NCBI GenBank assembly: GCA_021324115.1
Contig: JAJPJS010000008.1
Location: 84,160 to 148,159 of the forward strand
DNA: 64,000 bases
Direction: 5' to 3'
From: Nitrososphaerota archaeon
Lineage (GTDB): Archaea > Thermoproteota > Nitrososphaeria > Conexivisphaerales > DTJL01
Shown: positions 22,858 through 54,268 of the stretch, piece by piece
Position numbering within the stretch: the stretch's first letter is position 1
How the letters are laid out: each line of letters begins with the position of its first letter
Translations under genes and position numbers: made by a program
The notes under the pieces: generated by a model
What the model was told of the DNA's origin: nothing
The model's database searches: none
Seen by the model: the letters and a program-made list of their open reading frames with translations, nothing else

Positions 22858-24021
22858 TTAGTATGAAACTTTTGATCTTTGCTTCGAACGCCGAACCACT
22901 GCTTTGCTCGGAATTGCCATCTTCTCCATCTCTCTGTAGAATCCAAGAGTCCTAAATATCGGCTGGTCTGAATATGAAAACAGGATCAGCGGTTTGGTAC
23001 CATTGTTGCTGATTCTGTATGTTTGCCACGTTGGCACGCTCAGCACATCAAACGGCTCGGTATCGAATCTCTTGTCACCCACATTGAATGTTCCGTTCCC
23101 TTCGAATGTGATAAAGACGGCGTTTTCTGTTCTGCAAACAGGTTCGAGTTCCTTCCCTGGTTTTACCAGATGCATTCTAAGCATCATTGTTGGAAAAGCC
23201 GGACCGCCAGTTGTCGGATTTACGTACTCTATCACGATGCCTTCATGTGGCGAGCCATCACTTTTAGCTGCCATTCTAAACAAAGAGTTCCTTACTTCAT
23301 CATATGGATAGTACAACAGTGGATTGTTGGTTGCAGGGAGGTGTGGTGGTGGAGACTCGGAAAGGGGCTTCAATCCCATTGCGTACCGTGCAAGCACATC
23401 TTCAGCTTCGGAAGTCGCAGCCTGTGCTTTTCCGATTCCAGCCTCCTCAAAATCCTGATAGAAACCTGCGCCTATCCAAAATGCGATGGTAGCATCCAAT
23501 CCATCGAACCAGATAGCATTCTTGTTTCCTTCGTTACCATGGTCATGCCAGACCCAACTGGGGGTAAGTATCAGGTCACCCGGATGCATGGGAACCTTAT
23601 GACCTTCCACCACAGTATATGCACCCTGCGAAGGCGCTTCGAGGACAAATCTGAACGCGTTAACCGTATGTCTGTGGGTGTACTCCCTTTCGTCGGGCTT
23701 CAATAGCTGGATACCACCCCTCAAAGTTGGAAGAATTGCACCTGGAACAACATCTTTAAGACCTGGATTGATGAAATTTACATTTCTCCGTTCTGCTTCC
23801 TCTGGTGTTAATATTTCACCAAGCTCCAGCAGCATTTTCTTCGCTTTCTTGTACTCCCATTTGTGTGTCATCGAGAGCGGCACAGGAGCAGGTGTAAACC
23901 GGAAGTTCTTGGATTTGGCATACTTCGGATGAGTGATTACGAAGAAGGAGGAAAGGTCATTCTCCAGAAGTTTTTCAACGAACTTTTCTCTTCTCTTTTG
24001 CAGCGCCTGATTCAGTGGCAC
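22858..24021 (-). CDS. Gentisate 1,2-dioxygenase-like bicupin
   Basis: 387 residues of the gentisate/1-hydroxy-2-naphthoate dioxygenase type, Fe(II) enzymes that cleave the ring between adjacent carboxyl and hydroxyl carbons. The N-terminal cupin carries H-R-H (residues ~116-118) in YTHRHTVNAFRFVLE, and the third ligand in W-V-W-H-D-H-G-N-E-G. The family also has D-G-L-D after that. The C-terminal cupin lacks its His ligands, as in many family members. GTG start; TATA-like TTTATAAG near 24062-24069. A mini-ORF ATG-AAT-TAG with an AGGAGAGG lies in the leader. Divergent from the Mo-hydroxylase gene, so co-regulation is likely. The exact substrate is unproven. Confidence 0.8.
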   Translation of the reverse strand: MPLNQALQKRREKFVEKLLENDLSSFFVITHPKYAKSKNFRFTPAPVPLSMTHKWEYKKAKKMLLELGEILTPEEAERRNVNFINPGLKDVVPGAILPTLRGGIQLLKPDEREYTHRHTVNAFRFVLEAPSQGAYTVVEGHKVPMHPGDLILTPSWVWHDHGNEGNKNAIWFDGLDATIAFWIGAGFYQDFEEAGIGKAQAATSEAEDVLARYAMGLKPLSESPPPHLPATNNPLLYYPYDEVRNSLFRMAAKSDGSPHEGIVIEYVNPTTGGPAFPTMMLRMHLVKPGKELEPVCRTENAVFITFEGNGTFNVGDKRFDTEPFDVLSVPTWQTYRISNNGTKPLILFSYSDQPIFRTLGFYREMEKMAIPSKAVVRRSKQRSKVSY

Positions 24022-30903: not shown

Positions 30904-31926
30904 CTACCCTACCGGCGCGTATCCAGGTGTGTAAAGCGAACCGGGTGTAATGGTGGTCTTGTTCCCTGTTATCGCGTTTGCGGTGTAAAGCACATTGATG
31001 GCATTCTGTAGCTGCGAAGTCACTATTTCGCCGTTGGTCGAATAGGATATGAGAGACATAAAGAGATTTGCTTCAGCCTGAGTAAAGTTTTCCCTGTTGA
31101 TCAGGAAGTTCACGGTTGCGGAGTTCGTATTCGCATTGAATGCGGCGTCTGCCTTCCACAGCATTTCGAGGGTTGCTTTAACCGCATTCGGACTGGATTT
31201 AAGGAACGTTGTACTCGCTAGAACGACGAAGCCTGGCCAGGTTTCGTTGATGTATCCGATCACCCTCAGCTTACCTTGGGCAACAAGCGGATACACATCG
31301 AACGGATTACCGTTGCTGGTGGCTGCTGTACCGGTGAGCACGGATGCCACCTGTGCCTGGAATGATCCCACGAACGTCTCATGTATGGCGGAGGCAAAAG
31401 TCCATCCCATATCGGAAGCAAGCAGATGGTTGGTTACTTCATCAAGGCTGCCGGGTTTGCTATCCGCGAAGGTCTTGCCGTACAACTGGCTTAGGGCTGT
31501 GTATGAGGAATTAGCCGCCACATAGTAGGCCCTGTCGTTGGGCGATCTGTATGCTGCGACAATGGTAATTGGTGCGCCTGATACAAGTGCAGGTATCGCA
31601 GAATCGGTCGCCGCTATGCCCATCTGGATACTCCCGCTCACCAGAGCCTTCAGCACATCACCACTTCCACCTGGAAACTGTTCGATCTTCATGTTGGGAA
31701 CGTAACTTGAAGTGTAGTTATTCATCCTCATGTAGGCGAAGCCGAAGAGGTCTGGATGGTCATCCGAAACTACGCCAAAGGAGAAGGATGTCGTATCTGG
31801 AAGGGCGGCCCCAGAAGAGGATGGGGAGCTCGGCCGTGTAGCATAGTATATACCGACCGCTGCTACTATGATCACGACGACGATGACGACTGCGACTACA
31901 GCCATTGAAACGGAGCGATGCTTCAT
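30904..31926 (-). CDS. NMT1/SsuA-type substrate-binding protein, membrane anchored
   Basis: 340 residues. An uncleaved-looking N-terminal anchor (MAVVAVVIVVVIIVAAVGIYYA) and a Ser/Pro linker hold the receptor outside the membrane. The body (FPGGSGDVLKALVSGSIQMGIAATDSAI) is the NMT1/THI5-SsuA fold that binds small anions, sulfonates or aromatic carboxylates. It serves the ABC importer although reversed relative to it. TATA-like ACTTATACG near 31951-31959. The substrate is unknown; an aromatic acid fits the island. Confidence 0.85.
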   Translation of the reverse strand: MKHRSVSMAVVAVVIVVVIIVAAVGIYYATRPSSPSSSGAALPDTTSFSFGVVSDDHPDLFGFAYMRMNNYTSSYVPNMKIEQFPGGSGDVLKALVSGSIQMGIAATDSAIPALVSGAPITIVAAYRSPNDRAYYVAANSSYTALSQLYGKTFADSKPGSLDEVTNHLLASDMGWTFASAIHETFVGSFQAQVASVLTGTAATSNGNPFDVYPLVAQGKLRVIGYINETWPGFVVLASTTFLKSSPNAVKATLEMLWKADAAFNANTNSATVNFLINRENFTQAEANLFMSLISYSTNGEIVTSQLQNAINVLYTANAITGNKTTITPGSLYTPGYAPVG

Positions 31927-32043
31927 TTCGACGATGTCCGGAACAACTCACGTATAAGTCTTTTTTTGCATGCAAAGTCTATATCAAAAACCCGACGCAA
32001 AATGAAAATAGTCATTTTTTATTGTCCATTTGATAACAATTTT

Positions 32044-33612
32044 TCAGCCTGCTGGGTCACCAGTTTTGTCATGTCCGGTACCGAAGATCAGAGACTTGAC
32101 CGTCACCGGGAGGGTGGAGGAGTCCGTGAGAGGGTGGCCTATGTCGACATAGTCAAAGTCCTGCAGCTCAAGACCATCCAGTGTAACGACCGGACTGACC
32201 ACTCCCAACTCCTCCTTCAGAATCGCACCTATGTTCTGTGACACATCCTGATCTGAGATGAGTATTAGAGGTGTACCTGTGTCCTTCATTGCAGTTGACA
32301 AACCAACCGCCACGCTTCTGAGCTTCTGGTAAGATGGTTCACCTTCCCACTTGATGTAGTAAACAACTGGATCGCCTCCATTCACCTCGTTAAGGGCTCT
32401 GTTTGCCCTGCGAACGCTCCTTACCACTTCCTGTGCGGACATTTGATCAGTCACCTTCAACTCAAGCTCCGCCACCCGCGCATTCTTGATGGGCAGGATC
32501 CCTTCGTCGGAGACATACACAGTTTCACCGCTGAGCTGTATGGTGAATTGAGAGACGCCAGTTACGGTTGCCCTTATTCTCTGCTTTCCGCGAACCACCG
32601 GTGCCCCGAACTCCTTCCTTTGGATCATCATGCCCAGCCTTTCGCCGAGCGGTTTTCCGAGGTCATGGAAATCCCTCTTCTCTTTGCCGTAAACATATTC
32701 AGACACCCCACCCGAAAATACAATAGCGTCAATACCAGACGGGACGATCGGTCTCGAAAGAAGTAGCCAGTCCCAGTCGCTTCCTAAATTTCTCCCGGTA
32801 ATGAAATTCTTTATTGCAAAAGCCATCCAGTCGCAAACGATTTGACGTTCCTTATCAGAAAAGACTTCTCCAGCCTTGACGTCTAATCCGAGATGTTCAC
32901 AAATACGGGTGGCAATCGGTTCGACCCTTACAACTCTGCGGTCCTTATCCGTAACGATCAGCCTTCCCCCAACATGCAACGCGGATGTAGCAACAACCCT
33001 GCCCCGCTTTGCTATCGCAACTTTGGTGGTGCCACCACCTATATCCACATTCATGACCTGCTTTCCATATTGCCTCGATAGGGTTACTGCGCCAGAACCA
33101 TGCGCAGCCAGCATTGCTTCGAGCCGGTTCCCTGCTGTCACGCACACAAATTTACCGAGCTCAGCGGAGAGTGAGTCCGCTATCACCCTCGAGTTGCGCC
33201 GCCTTACCGCTTCCCCTGTCAGTATCAATGCCCCCGTGTCTACTTCGGAGCGCCTGATACCAGCCAACCCGTAAGCCCTCTCGACGATCCTGTACACTCC
33301 TTTGCCATCGATCAGGTGCCGACCAATATATGGGGTAAATGAAACTTCAGATGCAAAAATCGTTTTCCTAGAAACCACTGCATACCTGCTTGAAAGTGCG
33401 TAACCCAGTCTCCTCATCGTCAGCCTTGAAAAAAGCACCTGAGTTCCAGAAGAACCCACATCGATTCCCACAGTAAGTAAATTCTTTTTTTCGAATGTAT
33501 CCGTGCCTGTCAATCGCTCTTCGTGGTGATGGTGGTGAGTCTCTTGAGTCTGCTTCTGCATCTCATTTTCATTTATCTCAGGATATCTTCTAGAATCATG
33601 CAAATCGCGCAA
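32044..33612 (-). CDS. EutA-family reactivase (ethanolamine ammonia-lyase reactivating factor like)
   Basis: 522 residues. Actin-like ATPase: phosphate-1 VGIDVGSSGTQVLFSRL, phosphate-2 NVDIGGGTTKVAI, and the EutA-specific end (FDYVDIGHPLTDSSTLPVTVKSL). In enterobacteria EutA releases inactive cobalamin from the B12 enzyme EutBC; no EutBC, no other B12 enzyme and no ethanolamine gene is in this window. It begins six bases after the bicupin stop, so the two are one operon. An unusual His-rich stretch (five His in a row) lies near residue 26, followed by E-E. The TTG start is one of several possible; the first ~40 residues are variable. Confidence 0.85.
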   Translation of the reverse strand: MRDLHDSRRYPEINENEMQKQTQETHHHHHEERLTGTDTFEKKNLLTVGIDVGSSGTQVLFSRLTMRRLGYALSSRYAVVSRKTIFASEVSFTPYIGRHLIDGKGVYRIVERAYGLAGIRRSEVDTGALILTGEAVRRRNSRVIADSLSAELGKFVCVTAGNRLEAMLAAHGSGAVTLSRQYGKQVMNVDIGGGTTKVAIAKRGRVVATSALHVGGRLIVTDKDRRVVRVEPIATRICEHLGLDVKAGEVFSDKERQIVCDWMAFAIKNFITGRNLGSDWDWLLLSRPIVPSGIDAIVFSGGVSEYVYGKEKRDFHDLGKPLGERLGMMIQRKEFGAPVVRGKQRIRATVTGVSQFTIQLSGETVYVSDEGILPIKNARVAELELKVTDQMSAQEVVRSVRRANRALNEVNGGDPVVYYIKWEGEPSYQKLRSVAVGLSTAMKDTGTPLILISDQDVSQNIGAILKEELGVVSPVVTLDGLELQDFDYVDIGHPLTDSSTLPVTVKSLIFGTGHDKTGDPAG

Positions 33613-33618
33613 AGTCGG

Positions 33619-34713
33619 TCAACGTCGCAGTTTGGCAGCTTCGGCCTCGTAATACTTCTGCATTCTTGACTGGACGCCACTCTTTGCCAGCTCTTCAAGA
33701 AACGTCTTTCTTATCAACTCGTCTTCATCAGCGTAATCAATCTGGTCTCCACCCTCCCGGGAGCTGATCCACGCCTTGGGTATTCCTTCTTCGTTTCTTA
33801 TCGTCGTCCCTTCATATTTCAGGGCGATGTATCTTGCAGGCATATTGCCTGTATTGAAATGCTGGTGGAACCACATGTTTGGCGGAACCACCATAGAACC
33901 TTCCTGCCAGTCATACCTCTGGGGCTTCTTTCCTTCGGGCCACATGAAGGTGTATCCTTTACCACTCACAATTATTACATGAGCGCCCGGGCCATGCCTA
34001 TGTGCTTTCTTGTACGTTCCAACCGGGAATTCAGAAATGTGACTGTTCATCGTTCCCTTGGCAAGGTTAAACCTGATATGACCTCCGTCGGCTCCCCGTT
34101 CCTTGGCCTCCACCAGCTTTAGTCTTCTCGTATCTGGCACAAAATTCGTATCAGAAAAGAATCCGTTCAGCCGAGGGCTTGGCGCAAAATACTCTGGCTC
34201 CCCCCCAAACCTTGCGACGAAGTCATGCTTCGTGTTGAATATGAATTCTGCATCCTGGAAAACATTCATTATCAGGGGGGCGTTTGTTACACCTACGTAC
34301 CTGGCGGGTTTTACACCTGATGCGTTATAATGAATATACCATGCATTCAATGGAATGGCAAAGAGTGAACCGGTCTGCCATTCGAAAGAAACCTTATCGC
34401 CTCTATCATTCCATACTACAGTCGAGCCCCGACCATCCAGAATGTACACCATCTCTTCATACATTTGTCTTTGCTGGTTCAGATTTCCCCCAGGCGGAAT
34501 TTCGCACACGTAACAGTCATTGCTTCTGTTCGACTCCTCATGGTTTATGAAGACTGCAGAGCCTCTTCTTCGTTCCCATTTCTTCAATTCAAGCTTTCTG
34601 AGGTCAGGAATATAGTGAGCGGGTATTATTTCCAGACCTTCATTTCTCACCCAACTTCTGTAGAAGTCTTCCTTGATTTCTGCGGTGAATTTTCCTGCTA
34701 GGGCAGAACTCAA
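33619..34713 (-). CDS. Bicupin of the local cupin subfamily
   Basis: 364 residues, two cupin domains. The C-terminal one is metal-ready: A-H-R-H-G-P-G-A-H ... F-H-Q-H-F-N. The N-terminal one has lost its H-x-H (it reads Q-Q-R-Q-M-Y-E-E) but keeps E and a late His (Y-I-H-Y-N). Both end in N-A-x-x-K-P-A-R-like segments, shared with the two single cupins across the divergent promoter. It is the first gene of a minus-strand operon with the EutA-like gene. TATA-like CTTAAATAAT about 27 bases from the TTG start. Likely an Fe-dependent oxygenase or isomerase; substrate unknown. Confidence 0.75.
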   Translation of the reverse strand: MSSALAGKFTAEIKEDFYRSWVRNEGLEIIPAHYIPDLRKLELKKWERRRGSAVFINHEESNRSNDCYVCEIPPGGNLNQQRQMYEEMVYILDGRGSTVVWNDRGDKVSFEWQTGSLFAIPLNAWYIHYNASGVKPARYVGVTNAPLIMNVFQDAEFIFNTKHDFVARFGGEPEYFAPSPRLNGFFSDTNFVPDTRRLKLVEAKERGADGGHIRFNLAKGTMNSHISEFPVGTYKKAHRHGPGAHVIIVSGKGYTFMWPEGKKPQRYDWQEGSMVVPPNMWFHQHFNTGNMPARYIALKYEGTTIRNEEGIPKAWISSREGGDQIDYADEDELIRKTFLEELAKSGVQSRMQKYYEAEAAKLRR

Positions 34714-34817
34714 ACCGTTTCAGTGGATGAGTAGAATTATTTAAGCTGAATGGGTATAATTTCGCTTGTGTATCCTAGGATTGGGAAGCGTTTAAATCGG
34801 TCACCTTCCCGTCTGGT
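34714..34817. promoter_or_regulatory. Divergent promoter of cupin operons
   Basis: 104 bases with a minus-strand TATA (CTTAAATAAT, about 34735-34744) and a plus-strand TATA (GTTTAAATC, about 34789-34797). Each is about 25 bases from its start codon, so both transcripts should be leaderless. The two operons are therefore likely co-regulated. Confidence 0.65.
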
Positions 34818-35372
34818 ATGAAAATGAGTAAGAAATCTCATTATGCGGAGCAGGAGGATAGGGTTTTCGTAAGGGGGATTCAGGGGGACTACAGCCTTAA
34901 AGAGGAGTTGAAGAGGCTCAGGTCTCTGCCGAGGGTGAAAAAGGCGGAGAATGTACCCTTTTGGGATGGTCCCCAGGTGTACAGCAAGCACTACCTAGAA
35001 CCGGCCGATGGGCTTGGACAGACGATTCACATTCACGTCGAGGAGTATGGACCTGGTGGTGTATCTCAGAAGCACGGTCATGTGAACGAAGCCATGTTCT
35101 ACATACTGGATGGCAAGGGTTACGAAATCCATGATAATGTAAGGTACGACTGGGAAGCAGGCGACGTGGCTATCGTCCACAACAACTGTGTGCATCAGCA
35201 CCATAACGCAGACCCGAAGAAGCCGGCACGGGCTCTGGTGATCAAGACAAAGCCGATGTACATGTTCATGAATATGCTTTTCCAGAAAACCGTCATACCC
35301 AGACCAAAGGAGCCCACGGAATACGGCAAAGACTTCGTTCCCAGGCAGGAAAGGAAGAAGGAGGTCACTTAG
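34818..35372 (+). CDS. Single-domain cupin (1)
   Basis: 184 residues with a full metal site: K-H-G-H-V-N-E-A-M (H, H, E) and V-H-Q-H-H-N, the typical mono-cupin Fe/Mn ligand set. It starts with ATG at a leaderless promoter. An N-terminal strand-rich section (residues 1-60) precedes the cupin. Its stop abuts the next cupin (TAG then ATG), so it is translationally linked to it. Paralogous to the bicupin C-terminal half. Probably one half of a two-protein oxygenase or isomerase. Confidence 0.75.
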   Translation: MKMSKKSHYAEQEDRVFVRGIQGDYSLKEELKRLRSLPRVKKAENVPFWDGPQVYSKHYLEPADGLGQTIHIHVEEYGPGGVSQKHGHVNEAMFYILDGKGYEIHDNVRYDWEAGDVAIVHNNCVHQHHNADPKKPARALVIKTKPMYMFMNMLFQKTVIPRPKEPTEYGKDFVPRQERKKEVT

Positions 35373-35993
35373 ATGAGCTGGGGAGAGTCGCAGGTATGGC
35401 TGCAGGGAGACTCGAATGCCAAATACTATCAGGACCTTCTTGAGGATGCCAGGACAAAACCCGCAAGGGACTCAAAAAGAAAGAAGATCATAAAGCCAAA
35501 CGAGATGCCTTGGGAACTTTCGCCACACGGAATATTGAAGCATATGGTAAACGAAAGCATGAACACCAGACTCGAAACTTTGGACGTCTACATGCAGATC
35601 ATACCGCCGGGAAGCAGGTCAGGCAGGCATCGGCACCTGGCCGAGGAGGCGCTTTACATTCTTGAAGGCGAGGGTTACGACATTCACGTCGACTGTGATG
35701 TCGAGATAACGGATACGTATCACTGGATACCTCAGAAGGAGTCCAAGAGATTCGATTGGCAGGAGGGCGACGTTGTATACATACCTCCGAACACCATACA
35801 TCAACACTTTAACGCCTCAAAGGACAAGCCGGCAAGGTTGATATCCGCCACCAACAGAATATACAAACACTCCGGGTTGAATGACCTTGAACAGCTTGAG
35901 AACGCACCCGAGTACACTCCCAATACACAGCTCGACGCCAAGCGGGTTGACGAAATGATAAGGAAGGCCATTCAGGTCGCCGCCCGCAGTTGA
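35373..35993 (+). CDS. Single-domain cupin (2)
   Basis: 206 residues, complete metal ligand set in R-H-R-H-L-A-E-E and H-Q-H-F-N, with an acidic insert between them (DIHVDCDVEITDTYHW). Extra N-terminal helix and a C-terminal helical tail. Same N-A-S-x-x-K-P-A-R tail motif as the other cupins. Directly after cupin 1 without spacing, and a TTGA overlap links it to the decarboxylase-like gene. Confidence 0.75.
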   Translation: MSWGESQVWLQGDSNAKYYQDLLEDARTKPARDSKRKKIIKPNEMPWELSPHGILKHMVNESMNTRLETLDVYMQIIPPGSRSGRHRHLAEEALYILEGEGYDIHVDCDVEITDTYHWIPQKESKRFDWQEGDVVYIPPNTIHQHFNASKDKPARLISATNRIYKHSGLNDLEQLENAPEYTPNTQLDAKRVDEMIRKAIQVAARS

Positions 35994-37069
35994 GTCGCAA
36001 TATTCATTTAGTCCTTGCCCAAATCGCTTCACGACAGGATTTGTCAAAACTCAGACTTACGCTCGCATGCTGGGATTATGATAGGACGAGGCCGCTCATG
36101 GATGGAGTTGTTAAGCCAGAAGGAATAGACCTGAATTACATCCCCATGTGGGTGGAGGAAACATTCTACAGGATGCTGAACAATAAGGAGTTCGATGCTT
36201 CAGAGATGTCTCTTTCCGCCTACACATCCCTTGTGTCAAGGGGCGTTGATACCTTCACTGCGATACCTGTCTTTCCTTCTAGAACGTTCAGGCACAGATC
36301 CATCTATGTGAGCAAGAAGAGCGGGATCAGGGAACCCAAAGAGCTTGCAGGCAAAAAGGTTGGAGTACAGAGGTACAGGCAGACTGCTGGTGTGTGGATC
36401 CGTGGAATTCTGGAAGAATACTACAATCTTCCTGTAGAAAGTGTAACCTACATTGCCGGGGGGCTCGAACTACCCGAAAGGGAGTCGAGGTTCTGGGGGC
36501 TTTCAGACAGAGGAGAAAAGATATTCAACCCCAACATAAAGCTGGTGGATATTGGTAATGCGGGTAACCTGTCCGCGATGCTTGAAAGGGGAGAAATAGA
36601 TGCCCTTTACAGCGCGAGGATGCCATCCAGCTTTGTGAAAGGTGAAGGTGTCGAGCGCCTCTTTCCTAACTATGAAGAAGAGGAAAAACAGTACTTCCGC
36701 AAATCAGGCATATTCCCGATCATGCATACGATAGTCATCAGGCGTGACGTTTATCAGTCAAACAGGTGGGTTGCACTTTCATTACTCAAGGCGTTTCAGC
36801 GCTCGAAGGAGGTCGCATATCGGGAAAATTATCAAACCGGGGCGCTGAGGTACATGCTACCCTGGATGAACAGGGAAATAGAAGAGGCCACTGCACTCAT
36901 GGGCGAAGACTACTGGCCGTACGGGTTCGAAGAGAACAAGAAGCTTCTGAAAACATTTCTGGACTATTCTTATTCTCAAGGTTTGCTCGAGAGAAAGGTG
37001 GAACCCAAGGAGCTGTTTGCCGAAGAAACGCTCGAACCTTTCAAAAAGGATGCTCATTCACCCATGTAA
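35990..37069 (+). CDS. 4,5-dihydroxyphthalate-decarboxylase-like protein (periplasmic-binding fold)
   Basis: 359 residues. LTLACWDYDRTRPLMDGVVKPEGIDLNYIP is the recognisable start of the Pht5 family, which shares the type-II substrate-binding fold (NMT1-like) but is cytosolic here, with no signal peptide. Pht5 decarboxylates 4,5-dihydroxyphthalate to protocatechuate. Some relatives are annotated as ABC receptors, so function is uncertain. The TTG start overlaps the cupin stop; a TTG at 36041 would give the usual S-K-L-R-L-T-L start and is an alternative. Confidence 0.75.
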   Translation: MSRNIHLVLAQIASRQDLSKLRLTLACWDYDRTRPLMDGVVKPEGIDLNYIPMWVEETFYRMLNNKEFDASEMSLSAYTSLVSRGVDTFTAIPVFPSRTFRHRSIYVSKKSGIREPKELAGKKVGVQRYRQTAGVWIRGILEEYYNLPVESVTYIAGGLELPERESRFWGLSDRGEKIFNPNIKLVDIGNAGNLSAMLERGEIDALYSARMPSSFVKGEGVERLFPNYEEEEKQYFRKSGIFPIMHTIVIRRDVYQSNRWVALSLLKAFQRSKEVAYRENYQTGALRYMLPWMNREIEEATALMGEDYWPYGFEENKKLLKTFLDYSYSQGLLERKVEPKELFAEETLEPFKKDAHSPM

Positions 37070-37088
37070 GGAAACCATTTTGTAATGG

Positions 37089-38108
37089 ATGCCATTCTTA
37101 TATGATGTGCGAATAATAGATGCTTCGACCCACATAACGCCAATCGAATACACAAGACGACTCTCCACCTCCAAGAACAAACCTGCAAGGGATGCGGCTC
37201 GCACCGTAATTCGGCTCTCTGAACGTTACCGTCATTTTTCGGACGTGAATGAGAGGCTGGCCGCGATGGACAGGTATGGCTACAGTTCAGAGGTCACGAT
37301 GGTTCACAGCATAATCGAGCCCAATATATTCGATTTCACATCACAAGAAAAGTTCGATTTGTGTCAGGGACTGAACAGTGAACTTTCGTCTCTATCACGT
37401 GACTCCGGCAGGCGCCTATTTGCTCTGGCTTCTGTACCGCTGGAAAGTCCAGAAATGTGTGAGAATGAGATGGAAAGATCGATGAAAAAACTGGGATTGA
37501 AAGGTTTCATGGTACCCACGAATGTGATGGGTAAGCCTCTCGACTCCTTCGAACACTTCTGGTCAAAGGCTGAATCTCTGGATGCGACTGTATACGTACA
37601 CCCGGTCGACCCGTCCGGTATGGAACATAGGACATATGAAAGGGAGTACGACCTTGCGCACGTCTTTGGTTGGCCCTATGAGACAACGCTTACCCTCACA
37701 AGGTTGGCTTTGGCTGGCATTCTAAAAAGGCATCCAAACCTGAAGGTAGTGGCCCATCATATGGGAGGCATGATACCTTTTTTCATGGGCAGGATAAAGG
37801 AATCCTACAGCAAGGCAGGGTCAGCTGTAAACGACGCCGGTGAAAGGCTGCTGGGGTCTTCTCCTCAGGAGTATTTGATGAAACTCTATTATGATACAGC
37901 TGTCGGCGGCAGTGAGCCGAGCCTGAAATGTGGCCTCCAGACCTTTGGGGCGGAACGGATAATTTTTGCCACGGATTTCCCCTGGGGACCCAAAGGAGGA
38001 ATCGACAGGATATCGTCATATCCTGAGCACATGTATCGCCTCGATCTATCCGCCGAGGAGCTGAACAGGATATTCTATGTGAATGTTGAGAAGCTGATTC
38101 TGACATGA
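37089..38108 (+). CDS. ACMSD-like amidohydrolase (decarboxylase type)
   Basis: 339 residues of the amidohydrolase-2 group that decarboxylates or hydrolyses aromatic acids. Ligands: the first-strand D-A-S-T-H has Ser instead of the first His of H-x-H; the later H in VHPVDP, HHMGG and the Asp in ATDFPWG are kept. Related enzymes include 2-amino-3-carboxymuconate 6-semialdehyde decarboxylase and gamma-resorcylate decarboxylase. It lies 19 bases after the Pht5-like gene in the same operon. Confidence 0.75.
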   Translation: MPFLYDVRIIDASTHITPIEYTRRLSTSKNKPARDAARTVIRLSERYRHFSDVNERLAAMDRYGYSSEVTMVHSIIEPNIFDFTSQEKFDLCQGLNSELSSLSRDSGRRLFALASVPLESPEMCENEMERSMKKLGLKGFMVPTNVMGKPLDSFEHFWSKAESLDATVYVHPVDPSGMEHRTYEREYDLAHVFGWPYETTLTLTRLALAGILKRHPNLKVVAHHMGGMIPFFMGRIKESYSKAGSAVNDAGERLLGSSPQEYLMKLYYDTAVGGSEPSLKCGLQTFGAERIIFATDFPWGPKGGIDRISSYPEHMYRLDLSAEELNRIFYVNVEKLILT

Positions 38109-38171
38109 TTCGGAGAAATCGGACCGAGAAAGACTCAAAAGCCCGGTTCATTAAATGGAACGTGACCTGAG

Positions 38172-38984
38172 TTGAACTCCGTTACTGTGGGCGGAAGGAC
38201 GTTCACATTCTATGATGCAGGCAAGGGTCCCGCCATCGTTTTCCTTCACAGCTTCGGACACAACAAGCTCATGTGGCTCCCTCAGCTCGATGCTCTAACT
38301 TCTCAAGGTTACCGTGTGTTGGCAGCAGATTTCGAGGGGCATGGGGGAACGTATTTCGACCCCCACGGATACTCCATTGACAGGCTGGCTGATGATACCA
38401 TACAACTGCTGAGCCATCTGGGTGTATCTTCGGCAGTTTTTGCTGGCATCTCCATGGGCGGCTATGTGGCCCTCAAGATCTGGAAAAAGCAACCCAGTCT
38501 TTTCAGAGGGCTGATTCTGAGCAATACCAAGGCGGAGCCGGACACTCCAGAAATCATGGAAAGAAGGGACAGGCAGATAGACTTCATAAAGAAACATGGA
38601 ACGTCCGCCTTCGTGAATGAATATGCGCCGAAGCGTCTTTCGCCTCTAACAATTTCTTCAAAGCCATGGGTGCTCGATTTCATATCGTACCTCAATCGCA
38701 GCATACCATCCGATGTTCTAATAGCAACCCTGTGGGCCATGAAAGAGCGGACGGATGATACGCCTCTCTTGGATCATATAACCGTCCCAACACTGATAAT
38801 TGTCGGCGGAGATGACAGGCATATACCAGTCAATGCGAGTCAAACCCTCAGCAGTAGAATAAAAAAATCAACCCTTGTTACGCTTGATGGAACGTCGCAT
38901 GTAAGCAACCTTGAGGACCCAGATCGATACAATTCACATATTCTGAATTATCTAAAAGCTCTTGACACCAAGGAATCTTTTTAA
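38172..38984 (+). CDS. Alpha/beta hydrolase
   Basis: 270 residues. The oxyanion strand (VFLHSFGHNKLMW), the nucleophile in G-I-S-M-G-G (S near 97), the acid in G-G-D-D-R-H-I-P and the His in G-T-S-H-V are in the right order for a serine hydrolase. Typical roles in such operons are enol-lactone hydrolysis or meta-cleavage product hydrolysis. TTG start, 63 bases after the amidohydrolase gene. Confidence 0.82.
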   Translation: MNSVTVGGRTFTFYDAGKGPAIVFLHSFGHNKLMWLPQLDALTSQGYRVLAADFEGHGGTYFDPHGYSIDRLADDTIQLLSHLGVSSAVFAGISMGGYVALKIWKKQPSLFRGLILSNTKAEPDTPEIMERRDRQIDFIKKHGTSAFVNEYAPKRLSPLTISSKPWVLDFISYLNRSIPSDVLIATLWAMKERTDDTPLLDHITVPTLIIVGGDDRHIPVNASQTLSSRIKKSTLVTLDGTSHVSNLEDPDRYNSHILNYLKALDTKESF

Positions 38985-39007
38985 GCGAATTTTGGTTCAT
39001 CCAATGC

Positions 39008-39922
39008 ATGAAGTTAGTCACCTTCTCGTTGGGACAAAACGCCCAAACCAGTCTGGGAGTTGTTCAGGGGGACAGGATAGTGGACCTGAAAAACTTGTAT
39101 CGTAACTTGTATTCGGGTGAACCTCCTAACTGGTTTTCCGATGTCGGGTCACTGTTGAACGGGGGAGAGGCTGCCATGGAACTTGCCAGAGATGTAGCAA
39201 GGCTAGCGAACACTCAGCGGTCGGGGGATGTACTGCTTGGCTTGGATTCCGTGTACTACCATCCTCCGGTACCCAGACCTGGCAAGATATTGTGCATAGC
39301 AGCAAATTATGCAGAGCATTCGAAAGAAGTGGGTGGAACCGTCTCGGAAGAACCCTACATCTTCACCAAACTTCAGACCTGCTTGGTCGGACATAGGTGG
39401 CCGATCACAATGCCACGTGTTACGAAACAGTTTGACCATGAAATTGAACTTGCGGTTGTAATAGGAAAACGGGGGAAGTACATTTCTCGAGAGAATGCAC
39501 TTGATCACGTCGCCGGTTACACAGTCTTCAACGATGTGAGTTCAAGGGATTTCAGATTCCATAAAGTCGAGCGATACAAGATGAACTGGCTGAGGTTGAA
39601 AAGTATGGACGGCGCCGCCCCGAATGGCCCCTGGCTTGTTACAAAGGACGAGGTGGATGATCCTCACAACCTGAGGCTGGTTCAGAGGGTGAATGGTGAG
39701 GTAAGACAGGACGGCTCAACGAGTAAAATGACCTTCAAGATTCAGGAGATAATAGAGTATACATCGGTCGGTATCACACTTTTACCGGGCGATATAATAT
39801 CCACAGGAACTCCTCCCGGCGTGGGCCTTGCTACGGGTAAATTCCTGAAAGCTGGAGACGTCCTAGAATCCGAAATTGAGAAGATTGGCACCCTTGTAAA
39901 CCCAGTCGAATCAGAACCCTAG
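39008..39922 (+). CDS. Fumarylacetoacetate hydrolase family protein
   Basis: 304 residues with the FAH C-terminal catalytic domain: F-D-H-E-I-E-L-A-V-V-I-G-K (metal ligand Glu residues), D-V-S-S-R-D, K-S-M-D-G-A-A-P-N-G-P and S-T-G-T-P-P-G-V-G. Such enzymes cleave fumarylpyruvate or acylpyruvates after gentisate-type ring opening, or act as decarboxylases. Together with the gentisate-dioxygenase-like gene this supports ring degradation. Last gene of the plus operon. Confidence 0.88.
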   Translation: MKLVTFSLGQNAQTSLGVVQGDRIVDLKNLYRNLYSGEPPNWFSDVGSLLNGGEAAMELARDVARLANTQRSGDVLLGLDSVYYHPPVPRPGKILCIAANYAEHSKEVGGTVSEEPYIFTKLQTCLVGHRWPITMPRVTKQFDHEIELAVVIGKRGKYISRENALDHVAGYTVFNDVSSRDFRFHKVERYKMNWLRLKSMDGAAPNGPWLVTKDEVDDPHNLRLVQRVNGEVRQDGSTSKMTFKIQEIIEYTSVGITLLPGDIISTGTPPGVGLATGKFLKAGDVLESEIEKIGTLVNPVESEP

Positions 39923-41147: not shown

Positions 41148-42476
41148 TTAAGCAACTACTCGTCGTGAGAAGACCGGCCTGTACTTGGGGATTCGGAAAT
41201 CTTGATTCCAAACCTCACAACTGATTGGTACCCCTTCACCCAGAAATCCTTTCAGGATATGTACAATATCCGATTTAATGACCTCAAAACCGTGGCAAGG
41301 CGGAAGTCTCACCCGAATGTCACCTGCTTCATTTTGCTCTATCTGAAAATCCGTGACACCTACCTGCCTCTCAATCGTTCGGATTATCTCCCGTGAATAC
41401 ACCCTTGTGCCTGCCGGAGTTACAAGAACTTCCTGAGGTCTGCCAACCACCTGAGATAATCTCGCCAACCTGGATCCGCATTCACATCCGTCGCTGGGGC
41501 CGACGACAGCAATGTCTCCCAGCTTGTACCGTATGAAGGGCATTAGCGTGTTTTCAAGATTCGTTATGACGACTTCGCCAGATTCTCCTGGACCAACCTT
41601 ATGACCATCCTTCAACACTTCCACAATAAGATGGGGTTGCAAGTGTAGGCCATCATGAGCTGCACATTCAAGGCCAATAGAACCAAACTCCATCGCACCA
41701 TAAGTTTCGAATACCTCCGACCCGAGAGAAGCATGAATATCTTTCTTGCAGCTTTCAGTAATGATCTCTCCTGTAATAAGGACCTTATTAATTTCCGGTC
41801 GTGGCGCATAGGACTCCAAAGCCTTCCCGAGTTTTCTCAAGTAGGACGCTCTAGAAAAAACCCCAGCAGGCTTGAATCGAATTACTTCTTCCACCATTTC
41901 TTCGACACTTCTTTGAAAACCCAATTTCTTCCATCTGAATGACATCAAACCAGGCGCTACCCAAGGACCAATCGTGGCTTTTTTTACTTCTCTAAGTGGA
42001 TTCGGAACTCGGTAACCTTTTGACGGCGCGATTTTCTGTGGCCCATAGAATTCTATGTTCATGACTTTTTGATTCAGACCTATTCCAAGTCTCCAAGTGT
42101 TTACAAATCTAAGAGCCGTAACATAATCGGCATATGCGTTACTCCAAAATATTTTAGAAGGTTTACCCGTCGTGCCTGTCGTATGCCTGATTAATACATT
42201 CCAAAGATGCATGTTATGCGCAAGAACTTCGGACTTCGGTTGGGACATAAGTTCAGATTTTGGAATTATTGGCAACTTTGCGAGGTCGTCTAGGGAGTGA
42301 ATTTCATCGGGTGTCAAGCCTGCTTGCCTCATCTTTCTCGAATAGAAAGGTACGTTTAGCCAGGCATATCGTACGAGTCGTTTGAGTTTCCACAGGGACT
42401 CCTGTTCAAGTTCCTTGACAGTAAATGTATGACGTCTGCGAATCTTGATATAATTATACAAAATTCTATTTAACAT
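41148..42476 (-). CDS. CapK/PaaK-family adenylate-forming protein
   Basis: About 442 residues related to phenylacetate-CoA ligase and CapK of capsule loci. The nucleotide motif H-T-T-G-T-T-G-K-P-S and the acidic motif E-T-Y-G-A-M-E-F-G are clear; R-Y-K-L-G-D and the late C-E-C-G also fit. The ATG at 42476 follows a strong AGGAGG five bases upstream. An earlier ATG (42509) lies before the Shine-Dalgarno and is less likely. It sits at the border between catabolic and glycan regions; either CoA ligation of an acid or capsule-type modification is possible. Confidence 0.78.
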   Translation of the reverse strand: MLNRILYNYIKIRRRHTFTVKELEQESLWKLKRLVRYAWLNVPFYSRKMRQAGLTPDEIHSLDDLAKLPIIPKSELMSQPKSEVLAHNMHLWNVLIRHTTGTTGKPSKIFWSNAYADYVTALRFVNTWRLGIGLNQKVMNIEFYGPQKIAPSKGYRVPNPLREVKKATIGPWVAPGLMSFRWKKLGFQRSVEEMVEEVIRFKPAGVFSRASYLRKLGKALESYAPRPEINKVLITGEIITESCKKDIHASLGSEVFETYGAMEFGSIGLECAAHDGLHLQPHLIVEVLKDGHKVGPGESGEVVITNLENTLMPFIRYKLGDIAVVGPSDGCECGSRLARLSQVVGRPQEVLVTPAGTRVYSREIIRTIERQVGVTDFQIEQNEAGDIRVRLPPCHGFEVIKSDIVHILKGFLGEGVPISCEVWNQDFRIPKYRPVFSRRVVA

Positions 42477-43162
42477 CTTGGCCTCCTGCAGAAAACACAC
42501 CGGGAACACCGCCAGAGGTGTTAGTAAAGTTTTCTTTTTTCTAGTCGGCTTCTAAATTTGTTTAGATTTTTGATTGCATATATGCGATATATGATGCATT
42601 ATCATATGTCGATAGTGTGTCGCGGTTACCATTCCCAGAGAGAGTAATGATGTATCACGATGCATCATATTAAAGGAAATATTGCTATAACAGAGAATTG
42701 CCTAGATGTCTTTGAGCAGTCTTCGAATTCGAAACTTCTTTTGAAAAACCCAAATTTGTTTTTAGAATCCTGCTGTTGATTCGCAAAGGATGATTCCGGT
42801 CGTTTAGCCCAAAAGATAACTGTGAACTAAATCTCATCGATGCAGACTTGATCGGATTTGCAGCCATTCCCCATTTGCCGCCCAAGGACGGTGGTTGAGA
42901 TTGATAAATCACCACCACCCTGCGGATATACAGTTTTTTCTCACAAGTTGCAGAAAACGTAGAATCGTCTAAAATCCACTAGTCCATAAACTGGCTCTTG
43001 CTATTTTTTCTCTCAAATTCCTGATTACTTCACTCAGTTTACATTCAAATCAAGCCACTTGAAACAGGACCCCTCAATTTGGAAATTTTGGTCTGGCATG
43101 TAAAGTGTGGGCAATGAACTTTGTCATATAAATTCATGCAGCTTGGTGGGGGAGTCGCGTCT
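42477..43162. other. A/T-rich intergenic region with palindromes
   Basis: About 690 bases without a supported gene. Around 42577-42670 three ATGATGCAT-like motifs occur: ATGATGCATTATCAT (42591-42605), ATGATGTATCA (~42647) and GATGCATCAT (~42659). Further on, GGTGGTTGA and TCACCACC (42889-42917) form a hairpin. The stretch is poorer in G/C than its surroundings and has no family similarity, so it may be a degraded or regulatory segment. Confidence 0.45.
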
Positions 43163-44560
43163 TCAACTTATAGCCGCACTCTCGAACGGGATTATTGTTC
43201 TTATTTTCGCTCTTGGTTCCTCTTGAACGAATTGAACATTGAATTTCATCTGTCCTTTTGTTATTTCTTGGAGCCTGGAAAGCACGTTCGATATCAGCAG
43301 CTCATCCACCTTTCTTTCAAATATCTTGATAATCGCTTCATCAGCAGACATACAAACGAGCTGGTAAGGGGGTATATCACGCACTCCGTCGAGCGAATTT
43401 ATTATCGATCTGGGAGAGACAATGGAGCCGTCAGCCAAATGAAGGAATTCAATGTTCCTCCCTTCGATTGACTTGATTGTTGGCAGGGATCTCCCGCAAG
43501 CACAATCGTTGTCCCCTAATACAACTGTATCTCCCACCTCGTATCTTATTAGGGGCATGGTATAATTTATCAAACTGGTAACCAAAAGACTTCCTCTTTC
43601 GCCGGGGGAACATGGATTCCCATCTCGCACAAATTCGAAGAAAAAAGTGTCCGAATTCAAATGGTATTCGTTTCTTTCATTGCACTGCCAGGCTAAAAGC
43701 CCAAATTCTCTGCTTCCATAGAAATCGTAAACTGGAGCACCAAAGAAAGACTCGAGTTCCCGTTTGACAGGTTTTGAAAGCAGGCTACCGTTGGAAATTA
43801 GAGCCTTAGGTGTAATCTTACTGTTTTGGCCGAGATCATTTTTCAGGCTCACCAAATACGCTGGTTGAGCTTCTATCACATCTGGTTCGAATCTCTGAAG
43901 CTCATTTATTATTTCACTACAGCTGTAGGTGATGTAGAAGGCCCGAGTGTAATGTTGTCTGACCTTCGATAAACTTAGCTTTATTCTATCAACCAGTTTC
44001 ATTTGGTTTGAAACAGGCTTTGGGTAAGTGAAAAATATCTTAGCGATTTTGTCCCACAACTCAATCCTGATTGCCTCGTTAGCACGCCGTCTGATCAGGA
44101 ATCTGTACCTTGCTGTCTTCTCATCTTCGTAAACCTTTGATGGGAACCCCGTCGTTCCCGAAGTGCTTATTTCTCTGATACTGTTACGTCGTTTTCTACC
44201 ACTCGGAAAGATTTGTCTGCCCAACATATCGAGATCCTCTTTGGACATCGGGGAAAGCTTCACCAATTCCCTCTGATTCTTGATTTCATCCGGCGAAATA
44301 CCCATTCTGCCAAAATTATAATGATGAAATGGTATGTTTTTAAAAGCGAATAGGAGCAAAGCTTTGAGACGTCTAAATTGGATATCATTGAGTTCCTCTT
44401 TTTTTATCCATTGATTCCTTCGGAGCGATTGCATATCAAGTTGATTAAATTCCATTACATTCCTCTTCAGTATCCTGCTCCTATTGACGTTATGAAGGCT
44501 TCGTTTAGAGCCCCAAAGTACCAAAGCCGTAGCAATCCCAGCAATCCAAGATTTTTTCAC
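43163..44560 (-). CDS. Second CapK/PaaK-like protein
   Basis: 465 residues. Adenylate-forming motifs I-S-T-S-G-T-T-G-F-P-S and Y-D-F-Y-G-S-R-E-F-G are present, with R-Y-E-V-G-D and C-A-C-G-R-S. A hydrophobic N-terminal segment (IAGIATALVLWG) precedes the family domain and may be an anchor or an over-long start; an internal ATG at residue 36 is an alternative. Codon and base composition is more A/T-rich than nearby catabolic genes. Homologues occur in capsule and archaeal glycan loci. Confidence 0.75.
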   Translation of the reverse strand: MKKSWIAGIATALVLWGSKRSLHNVNRSRILKRNVMEFNQLDMQSLRRNQWIKKEELNDIQFRRLKALLLFAFKNIPFHHYNFGRMGISPDEIKNQRELVKLSPMSKEDLDMLGRQIFPSGRKRRNSIREISTSGTTGFPSKVYEDEKTARYRFLIRRRANEAIRIELWDKIAKIFFTYPKPVSNQMKLVDRIKLSLSKVRQHYTRAFYITYSCSEIINELQRFEPDVIEAQPAYLVSLKNDLGQNSKITPKALISNGSLLSKPVKRELESFFGAPVYDFYGSREFGLLAWQCNERNEYHLNSDTFFFEFVRDGNPCSPGERGSLLVTSLINYTMPLIRYEVGDTVVLGDNDCACGRSLPTIKSIEGRNIEFLHLADGSIVSPRSIINSLDGVRDIPPYQLVCMSADEAIIKIFERKVDELLISNVLSRLQEITKGQMKFNVQFVQEEPRAKIRTIIPFESAAIS

Positions 44561-51120: not shown

Positions 51121-52106
51121 TGGAGTTAGTGAATAAATCCGTTCTTGTAACGGGTGGAGCTGGCTTCATTGGCTCTCACCTTGTCGACCAACTTTTGCTC
51201 CTTGGAAGCAAGGTGACGGTCCTAGATAATTTTGACAACTTTTACGTTGGAAAGGAGAGAAACATAGCACATCATGTGAATTCCCCCCGTTTCAGGCTTA
51301 TCCGCGCAAGCGTAACCGATTTTGATACTATGCTCGATGCAACCGATGGAGTTGACGTGGTATTCCACGAAGCGGGTCAGGCCGGGGTAAGGTACTGCAT
51401 AAAGCATCCTCAAAAAGCACACGAAGTCAACGTCACAGGCACACTCAACGTACTGCTCGCAGCCAAGCGGCAAAGGGTAAAGAAGGTGATTTATGCTTCA
51501 TCTTCATCTGTGTATGGCACTCCTGTCAGGTTCCCACTGGAGGAATCACTCCCCACGAATCCGACCAGTCCATATGCTGCAAGCAAGTTGGCGGCCGAGA
51601 AGTATTGCTTGGCGTTCGCGGAAACATACAAGATGCCTGTCACCTGCCTGCGCTACTTCTCAGTATACGGACCAAGGGGAAGGCCAGACCAGGTGATATT
51701 TGCATTCGCAGATAAAGCATCCAACAATGAACGTCCGGTGATATATGGCGATGGATCCCAAACAAGAGACTTTACATTCATTTCAGACGTTGTCTCCGCA
51801 ACCCTGCTGGCTTCACTGAGAGAAGAGTCTAACGGCCAGGTCATAAATGTGGGGTTCGGCAAAGAGACGAGAATAGACAAGGTCGCAAGGATGGTTCTTG
51901 AATACTATGGCTCAAACAAAGAGCCGGAGCTTCGGGAAGGTTACGACGGCGATTTTCCAAGAACACTGTGCAATAACAGCAAGGCACGAACCCTACTTGG
52001 ATGGCAGCCCAAGGTCTCCCTAGAGGACGGGTTGAAGGTAACGCTTCGTTGGTACGATGAAAGAAAGAATCAAGCAGTCGATGTAAGAAAGGCAGTAACA
52101 GAATAA
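51120..52106 (+). CDS. NAD-dependent sugar epimerase/dehydratase
   Basis: 328 residues of the extended SDR family: V-T-G-G-A-G-F-I-G-S-H-L, catalytic S-S-S-S-V-Y-G and Y-A-A-S-K (near residue 148-152). It resembles UDP-glucose or UDP-glucuronate 4-epimerase. The ATG overlaps the deacetylase stop as T-G-A-T-G; a TTG one codon earlier is an alternative. It ends overlapping the fusion oxidoreductase by one base. Confidence 0.85.
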   Translation: MELVNKSVLVTGGAGFIGSHLVDQLLLLGSKVTVLDNFDNFYVGKERNIAHHVNSPRFRLIRASVTDFDTMLDATDGVDVVFHEAGQAGVRYCIKHPQKAHEVNVTGTLNVLLAAKRQRVKKVIYASSSSVYGTPVRFPLEESLPTNPTSPYAASKLAAEKYCLAFAETYKMPVTCLRYFSVYGPRGRPDQVIFAFADKASNNERPVIYGDGSQTRDFTFISDVVSATLLASLREESNGQVINVGFGKETRIDKVARMVLEYYGSNKEPELREGYDGDFPRTLCNNSKARTLLGWQPKVSLEDGLKVTLRWYDERKNQAVDVRKAVTE

Positions 52107-54268
52107 TGAAACACGTAATTGCTATTGCCGGAAAAGTGTCTGTAGTGGATGTTCCTCCGCCTATATGTGGAGATGGGGATATACTTGTGGAAACAGCCTA
52201 CTCAGTCATAAGTACCGGTACGGAAACTTGGACCATTAATTCCACTGAACCAATTGGAGCACAGGATATACTGAAGGATGGGACCAAACTTGCCAAGGCC
52301 AAGGACCTCATTCAACATGTCTGGAAGACCGAAGGCCTCGAGGGGATCATAGATTACACCAAGATGGTCAGAAATCCACAGGTTCCGTTAGGATATAGCG
52401 TCTCTGGAGTGGTGAAGATGGTCGGAAGGAACATTCCGGATATCGTACCTGGCGAACGCGTTGCATGCGTTGGCGAAGGCAAAGCCACCCACGCAGAGAT
52501 GGTGGCTGTTCCCAGAAACCTTGTGGCAAAGATACCGGACAGAGTGGACCTTCAGGACGCTTCGTTCGCGGCGCTGGGTGCGATCGCATTGCAGGGCTTT
52601 AGGCGTTCGGGGTTGCAGGTCGGTGAAACCGTGGTCGTAATAGGCGTGGGACTTGTCGGTAATCTTGTTTCACAGATTGCGAGAGCCGCCGGTTGCCGAG
52701 TGGCAGCGATCGACATGAGAACGGAAAGGTTGAACCTTATCGCGAAACTCGGAGCGGAGCTGACAGTAAAGCTCGATGATCCTGACCTTGACAAGAAGCT
52801 AAATCATTTCACTAGGGGCAGAGGTGCAGATGCCGCAATCATTTGTGCAGCTACTACCAATAGTGATCCAGTGAATCTGGCGGCCAAGCTGGTGCGGGAT
52901 AGGGGCACACTGGTTGTGGTTGGCAGGGTGGGTCTAGATTTTGATCGCAAGGCATTATTCCAGAAGGAGTTGCAGGTGTTCATGTCCAGGTCTCTCGGTC
53001 CAGGAAGGTATGATCCAATCTATGAAGAAAGAGGAGTGGACTATCCGTTTTCGTATGTCAGATGGACGTTAAATCGTAATATCGAAGGTTTTCTGGATCT
53101 TGTTGCTGCGGGTGAAATACATCTTAAGGAACTTGTTGCCAACATATACCCCATAGACAAGGCGGAAGAAGCTTATCGCGAACTCTCGGTCACGCCGAAG
53201 GCGGCTGTCCTGTTAAGTTATGGGAAGCAATCTGAATTAAATCGGAAAGAAAGCACAGATTCAAGAGAAATCAAAACATATCAATCTGGAAGACCTAAAA
53301 TCGCAGTCGTCGGTCCCGGAAATTTTGCGAAGGAAACCCTGATACCCCTTCTCAAGGGAAGCGGTATCTTTCGGCTTGGATGGCTAGTTTCCTCCAATCC
53401 GGTTCATGCAAAACAACTTGCTCAGCGTTTTAGATTCGAAAGCGAAACAACCAACTTTGCAGACGTCTTGTCCGATGATGAAACAATTGGGGTCTTCATA
53501 ACCACACCAAACAATCTTCATCATCAGATGGTGGTAGCGGCCGCTAGGGCCGGTAAGGCAGTCTTCGTGGAAAAACCTCTTTGTCTGAACGAAGTAGAGC
53601 TGAGGGATATCCAGAAGGCACAAACCGAAACCGGTTCAAGAATAGTTGTGGGATTCAACAGAAGGTATTCTCCTCTCATTCTCAGGTTAAAGGCGGAATT
53701 GGACAGATTGAACGGACCATTTATGGTGACTTACAGAGTAATCCAAGATTTCACACCTCTTTCAAAGTGGGTGCAGGACCCACTGATTGGCGGTGGCCGT
53801 ATCATCGCCGAATGCGGGCACTTCTTCGATACATTCAACTTTCTGTTGGGACAATTCGAACCGAAAATAACTGTTAATTGTGCCAATATAAACGGCTCAA
53901 GTACTGTAGCTAGAGACAATTTTGTTGCGACATTGAACTACCCAGACGGCTCGGTCGCCACACTGATCTATACGGCACTCGGAAACAGAAGAGCTGACAG
54001 AGAACGCATCGAGGTATTCGCTCAGGGGAAGGTGATGGTATTGAACGACTTCCGAGATCTCACAATATATGACCAAGAAGGAAACACGACGGTAAAGGAG
54101 TCCGCACAGGACAAAGGTCATAGGAGGGAATTTGAGGCGTTCGCAGAGCTGCTTCAAGGTAAATCGACCTCTGTCATCACGCTTGAAGAAGCAGTGGCCG
54201 CTACAAGGATATCCTTCGAAGTCGAAAAACTGGCCCGGGGGGCAACTCCCGAAACCTCGACGGATTGA
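52106..54268 (+). CDS. MDR-Gfo/Idh fusion oxidoreductase
   Basis: 720 residues. Residues 1-370 are a zinc-less-looking MDR alcohol dehydrogenase (VVVIGVGLVGNLVSQIAR, NAD binding; no clear Cys/His catalytic zinc site seen). Residues ~395-715 are Gfo/Idh/MocA type (KIAVVGPGNFAKETLIP, V-E-K-P-L-C and VGFNRRYSP). Such bi-domain proteins are known in polysaccharide loci and are thought to oxidise or reduce sugar intermediates. Linker around residue 375-393. Start ATG one base inside the epimerase stop. Confidence 0.85.
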   Translation: MKHVIAIAGKVSVVDVPPPICGDGDILVETAYSVISTGTETWTINSTEPIGAQDILKDGTKLAKAKDLIQHVWKTEGLEGIIDYTKMVRNPQVPLGYSVSGVVKMVGRNIPDIVPGERVACVGEGKATHAEMVAVPRNLVAKIPDRVDLQDASFAALGAIALQGFRRSGLQVGETVVVIGVGLVGNLVSQIARAAGCRVAAIDMRTERLNLIAKLGAELTVKLDDPDLDKKLNHFTRGRGADAAIICAATTNSDPVNLAAKLVRDRGTLVVVGRVGLDFDRKALFQKELQVFMSRSLGPGRYDPIYEERGVDYPFSYVRWTLNRNIEGFLDLVAAGEIHLKELVANIYPIDKAEEAYRELSVTPKAAVLLSYGKQSELNRKESTDSREIKTYQSGRPKIAVVGPGNFAKETLIPLLKGSGIFRLGWLVSSNPVHAKQLAQRFRFESETTNFADVLSDDETIGVFITTPNNLHHQMVVAAARAGKAVFVEKPLCLNEVELRDIQKAQTETGSRIVVGFNRRYSPLILRLKAELDRLNGPFMVTYRVIQDFTPLSKWVQDPLIGGGRIIAECGHFFDTFNFLLGQFEPKITVNCANINGSSTVARDNFVATLNYPDGSVATLIYTALGNRRADRERIEVFAQGKVMVLNDFRDLTIYDQEGNTTVKESAQDKGHRREFEAFAELLQGKSTSVITLEEAVAATRISFEVEKLARGATPETSTD

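Follow-up and report, generated by a model that had tools for sequence, protein, structure and literature searches.

We describe a two-gene association between an EutA-family ATPase and a bicupin, a protein with two cupin domains, in a 64,000-nucleotide stretch of the genome of a Nitrososphaerota archaeon (GenBank assembly GCA_021324115.1, contig JAJPJS010000008.1, positions 84,160 to 148,159 of the forward strand), here called the window. The EutA-bicupin pairing is real and is conserved across domains of life. It is undescribed within the literature searched: a search with most subscription journals outside it returned nothing linking EutA with cupins or Pht5 with cupins, and nothing on orphan EutA. 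The known EutA frees ethanolamine ammonia-lyase of damaged cobalamin, using ATP (PMC5821096). What would such a protein do beside a cupin? The reading that we tentatively prefer is that the ATPase acts, in the manner of EutA, on a metal-dependent cupin, with a metal ion as the exchanged cofactor, inside an acquired catabolic cluster.

The initial annotation of this locus had described the EutA-like and bicupin genes running leftward, and a run of six genes (34818-39922) running rightward, from a shared region of 104 bases. Gene positions and family matches bear out all of these genes, their places and their strands, and the divergent region is indeed 104 bases long, with TATA-like motifs before both start codons. 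The gap of 6 bases between the bicupin and EutA genes (33613-33618) also stands when TTG is taken as the start, to which an internal ATG (Met18) is the alternative. The motif TTATTTAAG (34737-34745, leftward) lies about 24-32 bases upstream of the bicupin start codon and TTTAAA (34791-34796, rightward) about 22-27 bases upstream of that of single cupin A. Both are placed as in leaderless archaeal promoters and may function as such. TTTAAA occurs 11 times in the 64 kb.

The EutA-like protein matches PF06277 over its full length (377 bits, cut-off 27; positions 2-474 of the 475 in the profile), and falls short of the NCBIfam EutA equivalog cut-off (best 313.5 bits against 598). It is 29-34% identical to EutA across about 90% of its length and has the same ASKHA nucleotide-binding motifs, which are intact: D51, G53, D190, G192-T195 and G301-G302 are invariant columns of the alignment. 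It differs from EutA in that its genome has no EutBC, in its place on a separate branch, in a long N-terminal extension that is often His-rich among its relatives, and in having a bicupin as its neighbour. Could it instead be an ATPase directed at a substrate, either kinase-like or an ASKHA subunit of the lactamase/carboxylase type, with the bicupin performing the next step of a two-step catabolic enzyme? ASKHA proteins do include enzymes that act on substrates, and a Foldseek search with the AlphaFold model (pLDDT 82.7) found general ASKHA relatives only (Ppx/GppA, PilM and 2-hydroxyacyl-CoA dehydratase activators). Solo bicupins also adjoin hydrolases, as pathway enzymes do. However, the full-length similarity runs to EutA, a reactivase that acts on a protein, and no HyuA/5-oxoprolinase, Ppx or sugar kinase family matches the EutA-like protein at its family cut-off. 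We consider a substrate-directed ATPase unlikely.

In a tree of 61 EutA proteins, one branch (support 99/94) separates the 11 that are adjacent to EutB from the 50 others, and the split is present in 200 of 200 bootstrap trees. The root is arbitrary, and the tree says nothing on which role came first. The window protein belongs to the branch distinct from the EutBC reactivases; within it, it groups with the type I proteins of Alphaproteobacteria (99/98), and its own branch is long. A bicupin lies within 450 bp of 44 of the 50 non-EutB members, many of which were drawn from bicupin-seeded loci. On haloarchaeal plasmids EutA is found together with EutBC, and in one locus (L146, 6126-9837) a divergent EutA (229 bits) precedes a frame of 750 aa that matches EutB, a possible EutB fusion.

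The host genome (2.1 Mb, 27 contigs) encodes an archaeal RNA polymerase (RpoB by TIGR03670; A' and A'') and an archaeal PheT; the assembly yielded no 16S rRNA. A' and A'' share a single unsplit frame of 1269 aa (L172, 13675-17484), which we take to be a typical trait of Nitrososphaeria-type archaea. The earlier report that EutB is missing extends well beyond the window: EutB was not found in the whole host genome, where an E. coli control was positive, and the same absence holds for each of the 11 sampled Alphaproteobacteria with EutA relatives that were searched. Ethanolamine use is ruled out on these grounds.

One possible client put forward earlier is a B12-dependent enzyme with its gene elsewhere in the genome, which would agree with the established role of EutA (PMC5821096). 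Two B12-binding genes are over the cut-off in the host genome; these are the only ones, and their products are small (160-175 aa), matching the small subunits of methylmalonyl-CoA mutase in size. Methylmalonyl-CoA mutase has its own G-protein chaperone elsewhere. In addition, EutA occurs in one of 349 sampled genomes of the phylum and travels with the cupin cluster, its relatives adjoin cupins and never EutB, and no B12 enzyme was seen next to members with annotated neighbours. Reactivation of a B12 enzyme is therefore disfavoured and, in our judgement, very unlikely.

The distribution within the phylum points to acquisition from outside it. A PF06277 protein over the cut-off was found in only one of the 349 sampled genomes, that of the host, and the same is true of a close cupin B; the bicupin is absent from the three other genomes of the host's family. 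These counts make vertical inheritance within the archaeal phylum unlikely, and the cluster was probably acquired by lateral transfer. The EutA-bicupin pair is present on plasmids of Sinorhizobium and Phyllobacterium. It might be asked whether the archaeal EutA-like gene is simply a functionless passenger of the transfer, as a single copy, rare in the phylum and on a long tree branch, could be. Against this, the frame is full-length, all nucleotide-site residues are kept and the bicupin motifs are intact at 38-42% identity to relatives, which indicates long purifying selection and makes a passenger highly improbable.

A contig scan with the window EutA returned one relative, in an alphaproteobacterial metagenome-assembled genome (L003). 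It is 38% identical, and a bicupin 40% identical to that of the window lies directly upstream of it. A profile built from these two EutA proteins, which therefore favours their subfamily though not its neighbours, was searched against 385 alphaproteobacterial genomes. Counting only matches above 400 bits, it yielded 24 full-length relatives spread over 10 genomes, most of which have two or three; most of the 131 genomes matched by the profile gave weak MreB/FtsA-type matches, which were discarded. A bicupin lies within 450 bp of EutA in 18 of the 24 copies, on the same strand in 16. This count is from the EutA-seeded search only, and the bicupin-seeded loci (L107-L166) were left out of it because they are biased towards bicupins. 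The adjacency, whose conservation the initial annotation had named as a point to check, is thus conserved in a second domain of life, across many genomes; the order of the two genes is found both ways round there, and the genes around them are unrelated from case to case. In the reverse search, within one alphaproteobacterial order, bicupins were present in 22 of 27 genomes, with up to seven in each. All 10 bicupins of the closest type (87-100% identical to the L037 bicupin, itself 60% identical to that of the window) adjoin EutA. Tandem bicupin genes were seen at three loci (L056, 5614-9162; L121, 6579-8923; L120, 2671-5075).

A second arrangement accounts for four of the 24 copies. Here UbiD is upstream of EutA and a single cupin of 124 aa is just downstream, with NicO between them in three; a Pht5-like gene is nearby, and RidA and ornithine-cyclodeaminase-like (OCD) genes are present in three of the four. 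The run UbiD-EutA-(NicO)-cupin-RidA-OCD-Pht5 is laid out in L053 (6759-13962; also L051, L052 and L055), where UbiD, directly upstream of EutA, is a prenyl-FMN-type decarboxylase gene; NicO, in its three cases, is a nickel/cobalt-type transporter. The remaining two copies have neither arrangement.

The closest counterpart of the window is a stretch of about 30 kb in one bacterial genome (G732; L175 and L049). It carries a type I pair, with a bicupin 62% identical to that of the window and divergent from EutA, together with NicO, a CobW/G3E GTPase, a Rieske oxygenase with its reductase, and a Pht5-like protein. Cupin B (62%) and cupin A (69%) follow, divergent from a Mo-hydroxylase, a bicupin and an EutA, the last two of type II. 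The four cupin/EutA gene kinds of the window therefore recur together in a bacterium. Pht5-like proteins also recur near EutA-bicupin pairs, in the window (35990-37069) and in L038 (6026-7009, 12540-13478 and 16667-17605), where three, the highest number seen, lie within one 19-kb locus; any link to the pair is tentative.

Transporters of the tripartite tricarboxylate, MFS or ABC type often lie nearby as well, and would be expected if the pair were a sensing or transport-control unit, with a bicupin that takes up a ligand or metal and an ATPase that passes the signal on to the transporters or regulators around it. The transporter types vary, however, while the pair stays, and neither protein has a DNA-binding or membrane domain. 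Such a role is distinctly improbable.

A further distinction between the branches is in the N-terminus. The residues ahead of the ASKHA core number 26-109 in the non-EutB proteins and 7-21 in the EutB-linked ones, lengths that are approximate because the start codons are inferred. In the window protein this extension is predicted by AlphaFold to be disordered and contains a run of five histidines (HHHHH, His26-His30). His-rich extensions are found in the type I proteins (6-8 His, for example GHTLEDHEYGDVFFHEHGPDADHDHD), in L003 and L041, and in the window protein; type III proteins have a shorter His stretch, such as HDLDFDHGHM. In all, about half of the non-EutB branch has a His-rich extension, which is absent from the EutB-linked proteins.

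The bicupin has two Cupin_2 stretches. Its C-terminal barrel keeps H238, H240, H283 and H285, which are putative metal ligands, while its N-terminal cupin has no HxH. The paired bicupins conserve both HxH and HQH in this C-terminal cupin, except that one clade has lost the HxH. The structure model (pLDDT 87.6), like that of the EutA-like protein, was predicted from alignments that excluded rows from plasmid records. Its closest folds by Foldseek are oxalate decarboxylase (OxdC) and the Mn-cupin MncA, at 12-14% identity and a TM-score of about 0.5, and gentisate dioxygenase is also among the matches. Gentisate 1,2-dioxygenase and 5-aminosalicylate dioxygenase (MabB) likewise have two cupin domains, and the window bicupin is weakly similar to both (MabB, E=3.9e-09; 3bu7, E=9.2e-05). 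It is nevertheless far below the family cut-offs, with 36 of 650 bits for MabB and 16.4 bits against 442.1 for gentisate 1,2-dioxygenase (TIGR02272).

How might the two proteins work together? We propose that the locus carries a two-gene module of an EutA-family ATPase and a bicupin, and that this module sits in a catabolic cluster which was acquired laterally and serves an aromatic or similar carboxylate. The ATPase would spend ATP to open or remodel its partner enzyme, as EutA does, so that a spent, wrong or oxidised metal could leave the partner cupin and the right one enter. The partner would be a metal-dependent cupin, either the bicupin itself or a cupin enzyme that the bicupin accompanies, and the N-terminus, flexible and His-rich in the window protein and in about half of its relatives, may bind the metal or hand it over. 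The bicupin would then be the client enzyme or, where the HxH is lost, an adaptor that resembles the client. Assignment of the partner to the cupins is strongly suggested by the gene neighbourhoods. NicO, CobW or TerC genes are found near some EutA members. The earlier proposal is supported in part. Its central idea, of an EutA that is coupled to cupins and does not serve ethanolamine ammonia-lyase, withstands both of the refuting findings named with it, as EutB is absent and the pair is conserved; its metal-dependent cupin option fits better than its B12 option, and is unproven.

Several observations weigh against this mechanism. The type II branch, 23 of the 50 non-EutB proteins, has no His cluster. 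Genes for metal handling are near few members and none is in the window, and their enrichment near EutA is not significant (6 hits across the 976 kb of EutA loci and none across the 349 kb of bicupin loci that lack EutA). Many of the more distant bicupins stand without EutA, often beside ACMSD-type or alpha/beta hydrolases. In 10 of the 44 paired bicupins, all of one kind, YxP replaces HxH; not every paired bicupin is therefore an intact metal enzyme. Adjacency, moreover, shows functional coupling and not contact, and the mechanism is inferred from genomics.

Several of the YxP bicupins have a second bicupin about 4 kb away, and it is the HxH-less proteins that suggest the adaptor variant. The diol and glycerol dehydratase reactivases (DdrAB, PduGH) consist of an ATPase and a small partner that resembles a client subunit, and the small subunit of the diol dehydratase reactivase is thought to be an adaptor. 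The pairs of EutA with HxH-less bicupins recall this arrangement by analogy. The proteins of DdrAB and PduGH are, however, of other families and serve B12 enzymes. The full form of the idea is rather doubtful. In it, the ATPase and the bicupin would together make up an ATP-driven machine that reactivates cupin enzymes or loads them with metal, in archaea and bacteria alike, and the bicupin would be a client-mimicking adaptor, degenerate in one clade. Cupins would then have a repair system, and a family of B12 reactivases a use outside B12.

Table 1. Features of the EutA-bicupin locus and its surroundings (window coordinates)
Feature	Position	Strand	Evidence
Gentisate-dioxygenase-like bicupin	22858..24021	-	TIGR02272 E=5.2e-77, 259 bits, below cut-off 442
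SsuA/NMT1-type substrate-binding protein	30904..31926	-	PF12974, PF09084
EutA-family (PF06277) ASKHA ATPase, non-EutB branch	32044..33612	-	PF06277 E=1.4e-112; tree position
His26-His30 run in N-terminal extension of EutA-like protein	33523..33537	-	Sequence; compared with relatives
Bicupin	33619..34713	-	Cupin_2 E=1.7e-11
Divergent promoter region, putative, 104 bases	34714..34817	.	TATA-like motifs
Single cupin A	34818..35372	+	Cupin_2 E=4.9e-13
Single cupin B	35373..35993	+	Cupin_2 E=1.4e-13
Pht5-like protein (4,5-dihydroxyphthalate decarboxylase family)	35990..37069	+	PDB 9jp7 E=1.2e-64
ACMSD-like amidohydrolase / decarboxylase	37089..38108	+	PF04909 (Amidohydro_2); closest PDB sequence ACMSD, E=2.8e-29
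Alpha/beta hydrolase, PcaD-like	38172..38984	+	PF00561 E=1e-23; TIGR02427 E=1.5e-40, below cut-off
FAH-family hydrolase / isomerase	39008..39922	+	PF01557 (FAA_hydrolase) E=2.2e-71

The rest of the cluster is consistent with a catabolic role (Table 1). Cupin B is similar to the gentisate dioxygenase 3bu7 (E=3.8e-09). Pfam gives no match for the Pht5-like protein, which is a full-length relative of Pht5, its residues 16-351 aligning with the solved 4,5-dihydroxyphthalate decarboxylase 9jp7; it differs in that other phthalate genes were not identified. The SsuA/NMT1-type gene continues the leftward direction past EutA, and its membership of the operon is uncertain. An SsuA/Tau-type ABC system, molybdenum-hydroxylase subunits, an MFS carrier and the gentisate-dioxygenase-like bicupin, possibly a further enzyme of the region, make up the surroundings. 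The region looks like a catabolic one for an aromatic or related carboxylate; the description of it as a catabolic system is plausible from its gene content, from which no substrate can be named. An Rfam scan of the window returned one tRNA only. Beside the cluster are two PaaK-like AMP-dependent ligases (41148-44560), with no Pfam match and below the NCBIfam cut-offs, the second in a stretch of lower G+C (about 41%). Farther along, in a region of surface-polysaccharide genes, a protein of 720 aa (52106-54268) combines a zinc-type dehydrogenase with a GFO/IDH/MocA oxidoreductase.

Proteins of PF06277 are routinely named ethanolamine ammonia-lyase reactivating factors, and public genome annotation gives this name to members of the non-EutB branch. 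Yet a whole branch of the family, often with two or three members per genome, cannot reactivate ethanolamine ammonia-lyase, because the enzyme is missing. If the proposed role is true, the branch would represent an ATP-dependent upkeep system for the cupins, which are among the largest superfamilies of enzymes, and would show a reactivase of known type at work on a metal centre and not on cobalamin.

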